Virus record (IMG/VR): IMGVR_UViG_3300035698_004398
Coordinates: 1 to 33,895 of that record
Origin: a virus
DNA: 33,895 nucleotides
Strand: one strand, 5' to 3'
Under the pieces are notes generated by a model. It saw only the letters and a program-made list of their open reading frames with translations, was not told where the DNA came from and searched no databases. Position numbers and translations under genes: made by a program. Positions 22,655 to 32,977 of the stretch are shown here, piece by piece; position 1 is the stretch's first letter, and the number at the start of each line of letters is the position of its first letter.

Positions 22655-23461
22655 ATGAATAATAATCTTAATGATGTTACAGAATATATAAATAGTAAAA
22701 ACAAAAATATAAATATAATTCATAAACCAAGGTATGATTATTTAGAACTAGAATTAACAAGTTTTTGTAATATGAATTGTAATAGATGTAATAGATTAAC
22801 TGACTCTGCTCCCACAAAAGATATGATGACAGTAGATCAAATAAAAAAGTTAGTTAAAGAATCTAATGAGTTAAATTATTACTGGGCTGACATTAGAGTA
22901 ATGGGTGGAGAACCAACATTACATCCAGATATTATACAGATACTACATTTATTAAAATCTATAAATAGTGTTGGGAAAGTTAGAATTATAACAAATGGTA
23001 CTGGTGAGAAAGTTAAATCTGTTTTAAAAGAAATAAAAGAACTATCTATAGATATACCAATTAGTGATTCATCTGAACGGTATTCTAAATATGAAAAAAT
23101 TGATGGCAAACTTCAAGTCTTAGAGTATTCTAATATGTTAAATGCACCAATAGATATGGATATTGATACAATTAATAGTTGTCAAATAGGAGCAACTTGT
23201 GGCTTAGCTCTAAATAAATACGGATATACATCATGTGGATGTTCAGCTTCAATAGGTAGAGTTGCAAATTTAGATTATTTTATTAGAGATTTAAAAGATG
23301 TTACAACAGAAAAATGTTTGGAGCAATTATATATTGCTTGTTCTTTATGTGGTGGAAATATGTCACATGATACTAAATTAAAAAACGATAATACTATATC
23401 AGATGTATGGAAAAGTATTATTAATAATTATAATAATAATAATAACTTAAAGTTATATTAA
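22655..23461 (+). CDS. Radical SAM enzyme with C-terminal auxiliary-cluster cysteines
   Basis: A 268-aa protein. FCNMNCNRC (C38, C42, C45) is the CxxxCxxC motif that binds the 4Fe-4S cluster and SAM, and VMGGEPTLHPD (about residues 82-92) is the GGEP motif. The C-terminal half has seven Cys (176, 182, 194, 196, 221, 229, 232) in a SPASM/twitch-like arrangement for one or two auxiliary Fe-S clusters. Such enzymes modify peptides or sugars by radical chemistry such as epimerisation or crosslinking. Lying among glycosyltransferases, it may modify a sugar or the glycosylated target; no precursor peptide was recognised. AAGGA precedes the ATG. The C-terminus has an Asn-rich AAT-repeat tail. Confidence 0.9.
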   Translation: MNNNLNDVTEYINSKNKNINIIHKPRYDYLELELTSFCNMNCNRCNRLTDSAPTKDMMTVDQIKKLVKESNELNYYWADIRVMGGEPTLHPDIIQILHLLKSINSVGKVRIITNGTGEKVKSVLKEIKELSIDIPISDSSERYSKYEKIDGKLQVLEYSNMLNAPIDMDIDTINSCQIGATCGLALNKYGYTSCGCSASIGRVANLDYFIRDLKDVTTEKCLEQLYIACSLCGGNMSHDTKLKNDNTISDVWKSIINNYNNNNNLKLY

Positions 23462-29389: not shown

Positions 29390-30238
29390 CTACTGTCTAG
29401 TATTTAAAAATACTCTAGTTAGATCTTTAAATTTTTCTATTTTTGTTTCACTTAAATCTTTTATTAATCTTATTTCTGGTATAGAAAATGGTCGTTCATA
29501 ATCAATTCCAAATCTCATCTTAATTATATCCAATACATCTTTATCTAAGTCTGTTAGTTCGTTCATTATAATTGTTTTAAGTAATACTAATGTTTCACTA
29601 TCTTCTAATTCTGTTGGTAAATCTTCTACTGAACCTATAATAAATGTTTCGTCTGTAGCTCCTGAATTCAAATCAATCAGTCTAACTATGTCTTCAATCA
29701 TTTCTTCTTTAACTTCAATACCTTTGTTTTGTATCAATCGTTCTTTTATTTCTGATGCTAATGGTTGTTTACCATAGCCCTCAGTATATAAACTGTTCTG
29801 AGTTTCTTTAACATTCTTAATATTTCTGGCCATACTTCTAGGTACTTTAACTATCTTATTCTCTTTAATAAATTCTATTATACATTTCATTACATGCCAG
29901 TAAGCGAAGGTAGTAAAGTTAACTCCTCTTTCTGGATCAAATAAATCAACAGCTTCAATAATACCTATCTGAGCTTGTTGAAACACATCTTCTATCACTG
30001 AGTTATCATTAATTTTTTTGCAATATTTAATAGCATACTTCATACCGAAGCCACCATTAGATATAATTATCGCATCTCTTAATTGTTTATATTCTTTTTG
30101 TCGTTTAGGTAATAAGGTTTCAAGCAATCTTAATTTTCTAAATCTATCTAAATTAATATCTGGTGCAGGTAAAGGGAACTTTTTGATATATGAATCAATA
30201 GTTTTCTTTAACCGTGAATAAGGATCTTCAATTTTCAT
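29390..30238 (-). CDS. Sigma70-family RNA polymerase sigma factor
   Basis: A 282-aa phage sigma factor. Residues ~84-120 match region 2 (EDVFQQAQIGIIEAVDLF, then DPERGVNFTTFAYWHVMKCI), which contacts core polymerase and the -10 element. Residues ~130-185 form region 3 (KVPRSMARNIKN...). Residues ~228-280 form region 4, with DKDVLDIIKMRFGI and a helix-turn-helix-like end (SIPEIRLIKDLSETKIEKFK). Region 1.1 is absent, as in alternative sigmas. It should redirect host polymerase to phage promoters, probably of late genes. GGAAG lies 6 nt before the ATG, which abuts the previous stop. It probably belongs to the unit started by the 30910-30938 promoter. Confidence 0.9.
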   Translation of the reverse strand: MKIEDPYSRLKKTIDSYIKKFPLPAPDINLDRFRKLRLLETLLPKRQKEYKQLRDAIIISNGGFGMKYAIKYCKKINDNSVIEDVFQQAQIGIIEAVDLFDPERGVNFTTFAYWHVMKCIIEFIKENKIVKVPRSMARNIKNVKETQNSLYTEGYGKQPLASEIKERLIQNKGIEVKEEMIEDIVRLIDLNSGATDETFIIGSVEDLPTELEDSETLVLLKTIIMNELTDLDKDVLDIIKMRFGIDYERPFSIPEIRLIKDLSETKIEKFKDLTRVFLNTRQ

Positions 30239-30547: not shown

Positions 30548-30883
30548 TTAGACCCTCATTAATTTAAGAAAGTCCTCAAACTTTAACGCACAATAGACAT
30601 CAGATCTATTACGTTTGAATACTAATAACGGAGTAAGATCTCTATTATCACTATCACTTTGTTCGAGAGACTTCCAAATATTTAATTTCTCTTGGTTCTT
30701 AGCTTCAACTGAAAATGGAAACTTCTTAGCTGCTGCCTCTGATAACTGAACATCGTCACCAGTTACTCCCATAGGAGTAGATTTAATATCTCTATCAGTT
30801 AATGATGGAAATAATTTTTTAACTTCATCAACGATGTATTGTTGTAATCGTCTACCTTTTGCTTTAGCTGAACTTGTATTCAA
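30548..30883 (-). CDS. PD-(D/E)XK nuclease, Holliday-junction-resolvase-like (TTG start)
   Basis: About 111 aa. KAKGRRLQQYIVDEVKK is the N-terminal helix with a conserved Glu (E20). STPMGVTGDDVQLSEAA contains the metal-binding Asp (D44), and FPFSVEAKNQEKLNIWK carries E60-x-K62. This matches a widespread small phage endonuclease family related to archaeal Hjc-type resolvases, which would resolve branched replication or recombination DNA before packaging. The start is TTG at 30883, 5 nt after GGAGG; no in-frame ATG exists nearby. The 30910-30938 promoter lies 27 nt upstream. Confidence 0.8.
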   Translation of the reverse strand: MNTSSAKAKGRRLQQYIVDEVKKLFPSLTDRDIKSTPMGVTGDDVQLSEAAAKKFPFSVEAKNQEKLNIWKSLEQSDSDNRDLTPLLVFKRNRSDVYCALKFEDFLKLMRV

Positions 30884-30941: not shown

Positions 30942-31571
30942 TTAAATTCTAAAATTTACAGTTTGTTTCTTTCCCTTTGCTATTGCTCTATTCTTTTCGA
31001 TTACATCGTTTATTAATTTTGTAGAATATTTTTGGTTTGGATGTTTCTTTATATAACATACAGGACATTCCATCTTTGATTCGTCACCATTTATATAAAA
31101 TTTCTCACTATAATGTTCTGTGCTTTCCTTACATGAAGAATATTCTTTTGGCATTTTTAATAGTATATCATGATCTAGATCCCAGAACCAGAAATGTTTC
31201 TTTATTTCATACTCCATAGTTTCATTATCATTTATACCTAATGCTTTTATTTCAGGTGGTAGACCTCCACCCATGTCACCAATATTCCAGAAGTCATGGT
31301 TATTAGATGTAGATACAGCATAAGCTTTTGTTTCAGGACACCATACTATGAATGTTTCATAGTTACATGTATTAAATGTTACATTTATATTTGGATCAAT
31401 GTCTGCATCCTTAGCTATCTTCTTCATTGATTCTACTAATTCTTCATCGTTATCCCATTCTCGTAATTTAATCATTGCTTCAGCTAACTCAAATGTAGAT
31501 CCAAATTTAGCATCACGTACTATAAATGCACTTGATGAACTGTTACTTACAAACCCATTACGTGTTTTCAC
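30942..31571 (-). CDS. Protein with serine-rich conserved N-terminus, copy A (209 aa, GTG start)
   Basis: The first 18 residues (MKTRNGFVSNSSSSAFIV) match those of the adjacent 122-aa protein at 16 of 18 positions, while the rest differ. The remainder has several Trp/His/Cys (FWFWDLDHD; MECPVCYIKK; SCKES), suggesting a metal-binding C-terminal part. The start is GTG 31571, with GGGAG 6 nt upstream, overlapping the previous stop as GTGA. This N-terminal tag recurs in unassigned phage proteins; its function is not known to me. It is the last gene of the upstream minus-strand unit. Confidence 0.65.
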   Translation of the reverse strand: MKTRNGFVSNSSSSAFIVRDAKFGSTFELAEAMIKLREWDNDEELVESMKKIAKDADIDPNINVTFNTCNYETFIVWCPETKAYAVSTSNNHDFWNIGDMGGGLPPEIKALGINDNETMEYEIKKHFWFWDLDHDILLKMPKEYSSCKESTEHYSEKFYINGDESKMECPVCYIKKHPNQKYSTKLINDVIEKNRAIAKGKKQTVNFRI

Positions 31572-31936
31572 TGAGGACTCCCTACCATATAATATTTTGG
31601 TGATTTTCTAATCCCAATACTCTTTAGTTTTTCTTTTATTTTATCTTCATCTTCAGTAGATAACATTGTAATTTCATCTACTGATTCATTATATGATGAC
31701 GTAATATGTTTACCAATTATTTGCCACTCTTCACTATATTCACCACGAGATAAACTTAAATCAGTTTTATTTTCTAATGTTTCTATTAGTTCATAATTGT
31801 CATCAATATCAATTGTAGCATCAAGCTTTTCTATAAGTGTTTTTAGTTTTTTAATCATTTTATCGTCAGTTTTAACACCATACACTATAAACGAACTACT
31901 TGAGCTGTTGCTCACGAAACCATTTCTAATTTTCAT
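31568..31936 (-). CDS. Protein with serine-rich conserved N-terminus, copy B (122 aa)
   Basis: Begins MKIRNGFVSNSSSSSFIV, near-identical to the following gene's start, then a helical segment (KMIKKLKTLIEKLDATIDI) and a charged tail. At least eight of the shared codons differ synonymously between the two genes (for example AGA/CGT for Arg and AGT/TCA for Ser), so the peptide, not the DNA, is conserved. AGAGGA lies 7 nt before ATG 31936. It overlaps the upstream nuclease-like gene by 11 nt. Function unknown. Confidence 0.65.
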   Translation of the reverse strand: MKIRNGFVSNSSSSSFIVYGVKTDDKMIKKLKTLIEKLDATIDIDDNYELIETLENKTDLSLSRGEYSEEWQIIGKHITSSYNESVDEITMLSTEDEDKIKEKLKSIGIRKSPKYYMVGSPQ

Positions 31937-32495
31937 TATGTATCCTCTTTAATTCTTCTAAGTTATTGAATGGTATAAGATGTTCATAACCATAGAACCC
32001 GGTCTTACGTTTTCTAGCTCTAGGATCCTTAAGATATTCATCACTTCTATATTTTCTAAGTACATGTACAGGAGCATAACCTGCTATCAAAGCAGATAAA
32101 TCTCCCATTTGTATAACTACAATTTGTGGTTCAAGATTAAAATCTTTACCTTCTCTTGGTATAAGTATAGTATTATTTTTAAAGTAACATGATGTTTTTA
32201 TACCTATATTAAGTCCAGCATCTTTCATGTCTGGAACATGGTACCTTGTTGATTCACCAACAGTTAAGTCAGCAAACTTAATATCGAGGTAACATTCAAC
32301 AGCAATCTCACCAAGTATTCCTGTATTAAATCTACTATTTCGTTGAGCATAGTCTATTTGATGGTGTGTTTCTCCAGCCTTTGATGCTGCAATAATATTA
32401 GAACGTTCTTTTATTCTGTCTGCTTCTGTATTTGAGAATACTATAGTTTGCATGTTACCAATAAGCGGTACAACTATATCTCTAAATGTTTTCAT
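31926..32495 (-). CDS. Probable PD-(D/E)XK-like nuclease or related phage protein (189 aa)
   Basis: GILGEIAVECYLDIKFADLT followed by VPDMKDAGLNIGIKTSCYF gives an early Glu (E63), D89 and K100 of a PD-(D/E)XK-like core, although the acidic residue two before the Lys is Gly, so activity is uncertain. The C-terminal part (IAGYAPVHVLRKY) also fits restriction-enzyme-like proteins that carry phage-specific extensions. I chose ATG 32495, which has AGGTGA 6 nt upstream; the frame stays open to 32558 but that part lies in the preceding gene. It overlaps the upstream gene by 14 nt. Confidence 0.6.
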   Translation of the reverse strand: MKTFRDIVVPLIGNMQTIVFSNTEADRIKERSNIIAASKAGETHHQIDYAQRNSRFNTGILGEIAVECYLDIKFADLTVGESTRYHVPDMKDAGLNIGIKTSCYFKNNTILIPREGKDFNLEPQIVVIQMGDLSALIAGYAPVHVLRKYRSDEYLKDPRARKRKTGFYGYEHLIPFNNLEELKRIHNEN

Positions 32496-32700
32496 CGTCT
32501 TCACCTTTTGGTATTTTCTTATTTTTAATATGTCTACCACATTTAGGACACATATCAAACATAATTATGTCATGTGATGTTTCGTTAGCATATTTCTCAT
32601 CAGTTGTATCACATATATAATTTATATCTTTACCTTCTGAAATATATACACCATATATATGTCCGCATTCTTTTTGTTTATTAGTTAACTTGACAGCCAT
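32482..32700 (-). CDS. Small zinc-ribbon-like hypothetical protein (72 aa)
   Basis: Not recognised. CGHIYGVYI, a later YICDTT, and CPKCGRHIKN form a likely zinc site (C-x2-C with an earlier Cys pair). The C-terminus is acidic. It overlaps the HNH gene by 20 nt and the nuclease-like gene by 14 nt; GGGGAA lies about 10 nt upstream of the ATG. It is part of the dense minus-strand unit of small genes. Confidence 0.6.
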   Translation of the reverse strand: MAVKLTNKQKECGHIYGVYISEGKDINYICDTTDEKYANETSHDIIMFDMCPKCGRHIKNKKIPKGEDDENI

Positions 32701-32977
32701 AATATTCTATTTCCCCTTCAAATGTTTTATATTCTAATACTCTACCACCGGTCGAGCCTAACCATCTAAGCAATTGTATTTTAGTATCGTTGTTTTTATA
32801 GTGTATACCTTTATTCATACCAGGTATATATATTTTGGCATGACATTTACGACATAACCATATCTTATTATTCTTTTTATTACTTCCACCAAGAGACTTA
32901 GGATATATATGATGGTGTTCTATTTGCATTCTATCGTTTGTTTGGAAATCACAGTTTGGAAATTGACAACTATACAT
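32681..32977 (-). CDS. HNH endonuclease (98 aa)
   Basis: CQFPNCDFQTNDRMQIEHHH, then IYPKSLGGSNKKNNKIWLCR and KCHAKIYIPG, is a classic HNH layout: zinc Cys pair (C4, C9), the H-H motif (H21-H23), the Asn-bearing loop (KKNN) and the second Cys pair plus His (C42, C45, H46). This nicks or cuts DNA with a beta-beta-alpha-metal site. It could be a small homing enzyme or an early degradation/packaging factor; no intron or intein is seen around it. AAGGAAAC lies 5 nt before the ATG. Confidence 0.85.
   Translation of the reverse strand: MYSCQFPNCDFQTNDRMQIEHHHIYPKSLGGSNKKNNKIWLCRKCHAKIYIPGMNKGIHYKNNDTKIQLLRWLGSTGGRVLEYKTFEGEIEYYGCQVN

Follow-up and report, generated by a model that had tools for sequence, protein, structure and literature searches.

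Why should two neighbouring genes of one virus encode proteins that differ almost throughout and yet begin in nearly the same way? The question is raised by the window analysed here, the whole stretch of 33,895 nucleotides of IMG/VR record IMGVR_UViG_3300035698_004398, in which two adjacent genes on the minus strand (Table 1) share, as the initial annotation had pointed out, an almost identical start of 18 residues. The likeness is real (16 of 18 residues match) and confined to that segment: past residue 18 the local alignment score of the two proteins (31.0) equals the mean of shuffled sequences (31.0 ± 4.6, SD), in agreement with the claim that the rest of the proteins differ. In a six-frame scan of the window with a profile of this N-terminal tag, the two starts scored 63 and 55 and the next best segment scored -3.8. 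Of their 18 codons, 7 are identical, 8 are synonymous and 3 are different (the start codon and two substitutions), the "at least eight" silent differences reported before thus coming to exactly eight. Recent gene duplication and conservation at the DNA level are ruled out as explanations by the 8 synonymous codons among the 15 matching ones and by the use of both families of serine codons. The serines of the tag, also those at invariant positions, are encoded by both AGY and TCN codons, between which no single silent step exists, and this argues for selection on the peptide and against recent copying of the DNA, as had been proposed.

The two genes form an operon, as indicated by the GTGA overlap between the start of protein 1 and the stop of protein 2 and by a purine-rich ribosome-binding-like site before each of the two ORFs. 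The GTG start of the 209-aa protein was fixed by aligning 11 relatives. The gene upstream of both is without a family match and is context, outside the tag system. Neither tagged protein has a Pfam or NCBIfam domain above cut-off; the 122-aa protein has a tail that is unique among the 488 tails compared, and the 209-aa protein belongs to a 12-member tagged family, the remaining members of which all come from viral loci fetched in this work.

Table 1. The two tagged genes of the window, their surroundings and a radical-SAM ORF found in the same stretch.
Feature	Position	Strand	Remarks
Tagged protein 2	31568-31936	-	122 aa, ATG start; AGAGG ribosome-binding-like site upstream
N-terminal tag of the 122-aa protein: MKIRNGFVSNSSSSSFIV	31883..31936	-	ORF and tag profile
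Tagged protein 1	30942-31571	-	209 aa, GTG start
N-terminal tag of the 209-aa protein: MKTRNGFVSNSSSSAFIV	31518..31571	-	ORF and tag profile
Gene upstream of tagged protein 2	31926..32558	-	same operon, overlaps the start of protein 2
PDDEXK/RusA-like resolvase	30548-30883	-	flanks the tagged genes
Sigma-70-like factor	29390-30238	-	flanks the tagged genes
HNH endonuclease	32681-32977	-	flanks the tagged genes
Radical-SAM ORF	22655-23461	+	MoaA-like, downstream of a glycosyltransferase gene

The same start recurs outside the window. Searched with a degenerate DNA pattern that encodes M-x-x-R-x-G-F-V-[S/T]-N-S-S-S-S-x-F, viral contigs yielded at least 119 matching stretches and bacterial or archaeal assemblies yielded 49, part of which are probably viral contigs in metagenome bins. 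The distance from the motif to the start codon is the same in 347 of 354 relaxed matches, which identifies the motif as N-terminal. The 492 distinct complete tagged proteins collected bear out the statement of the initial annotation that many phage proteins have the same start, and the range of the tag exceeds phages, as it is found in bacterial gene clusters too. Its consensus is M-K-x-R-x-[G/D]-F-V-[S/T]-N-S-S-S-[S/T]-S-[F/Y]. Conservation was measured on 308 tags from loci anchored on the enzyme described below and chosen without the tag pattern: R4 (100%), F7 (97%), V8 (98%), N10 (99.7%), S11 (100%) and S12 (99.7%) are nearly or fully invariant, S9 (91%, with 6% Thr), S13 (90%, with 8% Thr), S15 (95%) and F16 (94%, with 6% Tyr) vary little, and position 5 is free. 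Plasmid variants tolerate Lys in place of R4 and Asp in place of G6.

The carriers of the tag, which stand in tandem arrays of up to ten genes, are mostly 80-270 aa long, with extremes of under 80 and 717 aa, and their 488 tails form 139 clusters at E < 1e-4, with 102 singletons, the six largest clusters comprising 243 tails. Among 133 representative carriers, Pfam recognised one clear domain, the STAS-like DUF4325, and a few weak matches including a zinc ribbon; there was no sulfatase match. The family phrog_7397 (170 positions) matches the window proteins within residues 1-25 and 1-39, that is, in the tag; it is also matched by 76 of the 133 diverse carriers and is mostly the tag itself.

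The gene that accompanies the tag encodes a radical-SAM enzyme. In bacterial stretches the tagged gene adjoins a radical-SAM gene with a SPASM domain, and a model was built from six such bacterial neighbours. Among stretches picked by their tag, a search with this model found the enzyme family in 39 of 119 viral ones (among the matches listed) and in 37 of the 49 genome stretches, the enzyme not being found within the 8 kb examined in the other 12. The strongest evidence for the pairing is the reverse test, in which viral contigs were searched by the enzyme alone: tagged genes lie less than 6 kb away in 76 of the 80 loci obtained, 310 of 310 tags are on the enzyme's strand, and the gap between the enzyme and the nearest tag has a median of 333 bp. 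The enzyme is the sole constant partner in these loci, the next gene family occurring in 10 of the 80. Since control anchors in viral contigs gave too few loci, the background rate was estimated on 392 whole genomes, all from one bacterial order, with a tag pattern in which position 6 is unrestricted; the reversed pattern, used as a control, had no match in these genomes. The enzyme occurs in 14 of them and the tag in 12, of which nine are among the 14 (Fisher p = 8e-13) and three have no enzyme match. At 11 of 13 enzyme loci from this survey a tagged gene adjoins, mostly with the variant MK.R.[D/S]FVTNSSSSSF (usually Asp for Gly6); the two exceptions are a contig end and a weak enzyme match. 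A search with the enzyme alone also led to loci on alphaproteobacterial plasmids, and at three of three the enzyme has a neighbour with MK[IL]KMDFVSNSSSTSF. Comparative genomics thus shows the tag and the enzyme to be paired, among viruses as well as across several phyla of bacteria.

Nearly every isolate phage with the enzyme is a pseudotevenvirus, RB43, Lw1 and RB16 among them; these three laboratory phages of E. coli encode both the enzyme and tagged proteins, RB43 and Lw1 having two tagged genes each at about 20 kb from the enzyme. In Lw1, gp161 is the enzyme and gp116 and gp111 are tagged proteins. Tails without the tag were sought in isolate phages as well: two Lw1 tails were confined to enzyme-bearing pseudotevenviruses and are uninformative on tag loss, and two other tail families had no isolate-phage match.

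The cognate enzymes form a single radical-SAM family, the auxiliary-cluster domain of which is of SPASM or Twitch-like type. The radical-SAM cysteines (C59, C67 and C70 in the numbering of the viral sequence L041) are invariant in 23 viral sequences, with CX3CX2C in several and an insert between the first and second cysteine in some, and the Pfam Radical_SAM match of the enzyme at locus L125 has an E-value of 2.8e-15. The bacterial enzymes have the whole SPASM set, C-x12-G-x4-C ... C-x2-C-x5-C-x3-C, together with Pfam SPASM matches, and the viral ones, in which most of the second half of this cysteine set is missing, have invariant DSC, CES and PCSF motifs and a final Cys, a reduced, Twitch-like C-terminus. 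An AlphaFold model of the enzyme (pLDDT 88.5) has radical-SAM fold matches, in the first place to SuiB (Z 25.3, 316 residues, rmsd 3.2) and further to SkfB (Z 22.7), anSME (20.1), CteB (19.9) and ChlB (18.9), and a profile search retrieved SuiB, SkfB, BtrN, anSME and PqqE. Most of these relatives act on peptides or proteins. The predicted fold is nearest to peptide-modifying radical-SAM enzymes, a shared fold being no proof of function. In an approximate tree, 76 viral enzymes and eight from bacterial or archaeal assemblies form one group with support 98, apart from 39 cellular enzymes. In records G011, G025, G026 and G030, all of large phages, the enzyme match contains one in-frame stop (TAA, TGA or TAG), for which recoding, an intron or decay are possible explanations.

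The cognate enzyme is not encoded in the 33.9-kb window. The radical-SAM ORF listed in Table 1 was considered and rejected, as it lies outside the tag-associated family. Among the other tag-bearing virus records, searched whole, 23 of 31 have the enzyme and 8 do not; it is present in 18 of 20 records longer than 100 kb and in 5 of 11 smaller ones (the window apart), so that truncation of the fragment is a sufficient, though unproved, reason for its absence here. Two tag-bearing records longer than 100 kb are without the enzyme, and a 140-kb relative of the window, with a sigma-factor gene 61% identical, contains neither the enzyme nor an exact match to the tag.

We hold, with considerable confidence, that both proteins begin with a separable N-terminal tag, on which a dedicated radical-SAM enzyme would act to modify its core, one enzyme marking many cargos. 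The enzyme, with its gene in another part of the phage genome or, where it is missing there, contributed by the host or by a second phage in the same cell, would bind the conserved M-K-x-R-x-G-F-V start. SAM-derived radical chemistry would then alter or cross-link residues of the invariant F-V-S-N-S-S-S core, with cross-linking, oxidation of Ser and epimerisation as candidate reactions; the many unrelated proteins that bear the tag could in this way all be marked by a single enzyme. Modification of the tagged proteins by this enzyme we infer from the family to which it belongs and from the gene neighbourhood. Somewhat less surely, the modified site would lie within F7-F16 of the tag and not in the tails, since N10, S11 and S12 are so strictly conserved and the tails so diverse. 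The initial annotation had offered a modification tag recognised by a phage or host factor among several possible roles of the segment, and for this part of its proposal the link to a single radical-SAM family is strong evidence.

By analogy, the tag system may be expected to work much as a radical-SAM maturase system does. Like the radical-SAM/SPASM maturases of RiPPs (SuiB, SkfB, CteB, PqqE and ChlB), the enzyme combines a radical-SAM domain with a C-terminal auxiliary-cluster domain, its putative substrate gene adjoins (76/80 viral loci, 11/13 and 3/3 cellular loci) and the substrates have a conserved N-terminal segment; unlike theirs, the substrates here would be full-length proteins in which a near-invariant N-terminus is set on many unrelated tails. 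The carriers are not short precursor peptides with leader and core, and no leader peptidase or exporter family recurs in the 80 viral loci, the recurrent neighbours at cellular loci being a STAND ATPase and a partner of about 132 aa. With whole proteins as putative substrates and no recurrent protease or exporter, the tag system is not filed here as a RiPP system. The anSME enzymes likewise combine radical-SAM and SPASM domains and act on Ser or Cys of a large protein, but their target C/S-x-P/A-x-R is absent from the tag and the carriers are not sulfatases. A type IV prepilin-type leader (K/R-x-G|F) differs in having some 20 hydrophobic residues after G|F, where V-S-N-S-S-S-S stands here, and in the tag G6 can be replaced by Asp or Ser. 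The nearest published statement found is by Kaur et al. (2020; PMC7159879), who proposed that a radical-SAM enzyme likely modifies a peptide effector beside ATPase-based conflict systems; those are vWA-MoxR-FtsH systems, a text search found no such tag, and the passages concerned do not mention phages. A literature search by strings of the tag sequence and for phage radical-SAM peptide systems, which took in few subscription papers and no preprints, found no description of a viral tag-modifying radical-SAM system, and no NCBIfam equivalog matched the enzyme at cut-off.

The tag could instead be a docking leader only, with the variable tails as the place of modification, by analogy with ProcM-type systems, in which one enzyme likewise serves co-encoded substrates with a conserved start and a variable remainder. 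The single enzyme per locus with its 1-10 substrates would suit such an arrangement, and SuiB- and ChlB-like enzymes do bind leaders. ProcM-type systems differ, however, in the class of their enzyme and in having short peptides as substrates where proteins are found here, and in the present case the conserved part holds the likely targets. The tails are long, fall into at least 139 sequence clusters without a common target residue, and in some cases contain a recognisable domain (DUF4325) or zinc-ribbon-like cysteines; the Ser and Asn residues of the tag are conserved more strictly than docking requires, and the enzyme showed no identifiable recognition domain. We consider this explanation unlikely.

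A signal for packaging into the virion or for targeting, to which the radical-SAM link would be secondary, is quite improbable. The T4 capsid targeting sequence, too, is a short N-terminus shared by different phage proteins encoded side by side, and many carriers of the tag belong to tailed phages, but the tag has no Glu in its consensus and hence no site for T4-type prohead cleavage, and the same tag and enzyme are found in bacterial chromosomes, in operons and plasmids without virion genes, with a co-occurrence far above chance. Slightly more doubtful still is the idea that one divergent fold is common to all carriers and that the tag simply supplies its first strand and loop. This idea resembles what the initial annotation had named as the outcome that would undo its reading, namely a segment that is simply the first strand and helix of a common fold. 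F16-[IV]-[IV] does lead into a predicted first strand, and with six families accounting for half of the tails many may be remotely related. The fold model of window protein 1, a single model of moderate confidence (pLDDT 63) with no PDB match below E 0.6, nevertheless places the first strand at residues 15-19 and gives residues 1-14 low confidence and no secondary structure. Moreover, an untagged partner of about 120-140 aa, encoded in bacterial STAND operons, is a paralogue with the same domain minus residues 1-14, its hhalign alignment with the tagged protein running from residue 15 on (probability 66%, E 5.5e-5). The model and this alignment together suggest that the tag is a separate module; a common fold would also have to accommodate carrier lengths from under 80 to 717 aa, and it leaves the strict co-occurrence with one enzyme unexplained. 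The phosphorylation or glycosylation of the serines envisaged in the initial annotation, to which the serine run and the glycosyltransferase genes of the window might have pointed, is scarcely credible, since no kinase or glycosyltransferase accompanies the tag in the 80 viral loci and N10, R4, F7 and F16 are conserved as highly as the serines.

The reading of the start as a tag modified by a radical-SAM enzyme turns a recurring and unexplained oddity of phage proteins into a testable enzyme-substrate hypothesis and would give hundreds of unannotated phage proteins a common property. With enzyme and tagged proteins together in RB43, RB16 and Lw1 the chemistry should be directly readable, and, if the reading is true, a portable tag of 16-18 residues would be a useful handle for protein engineering. 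As to the role of the modification, one might guess at a common handle for host take-over or at proteins that act on, or evade, STAND-type immunity.

In bacteria the pair is found in a context reminiscent of defence. The 49 genome stretches include a STAND/NACHT-like ATPase family in 21 and its partner of about 132 aa in 20; three of them also encode an MBL protein, the one tested (at L125) resembling Avs1a and LmuA, and on an Agrobacterium plasmid the ATPase has a SMEK domain. The association with STAND ATPases points to the operon of ATPase, tagged protein and radical-SAM enzyme as a likely undescribed immune module. We lean, moreover, towards a wider picture in which one virus-encoded enzyme covalently marks a universal tag, the same pair serves in bacterial STAND/NACHT immune operons, and phage and host share or contest the chemistry. 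Operons that combine a STAND/NACHT ATPase, the untagged partner of about 120-140 aa, a tagged protein of about 132-137 aa and the radical-SAM enzyme were seen at L125 (1987-8000), L153 (1-4251), L164 (1-4693), L157 (1924-6046) and L300-L302; the N-terminus of the ATPase is trypsin-like or SMEK in some of them, and an Avs1a/LmuA-like MBL gene is present in some.

Several further arrangements of tagged genes were observed. Contigs binned as Heimdallarchaeota, Thermoplasmata and Lokiarchaeota (L149, L162, L170 and L172) carry tagged genes and are probably viral, as the enzyme of L149 groups with viral enzymes. In bacterial tandems (L290, 4553-7828, and L298) the enzyme is followed downstream by as many as four tagged genes, among which leucine-rich-repeat-like sequence occurs. 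Some long tagged proteins (549-717 aa; L129 2-1648, L130 5265-7418, L143 728-2725 and L165 2376-4451) have a hydrophobic stretch after the tag and an adjoining radical-SAM gene, and three of these four loci also contain a gene for a protein of about 280-330 aa with a hydrophobic stretch.
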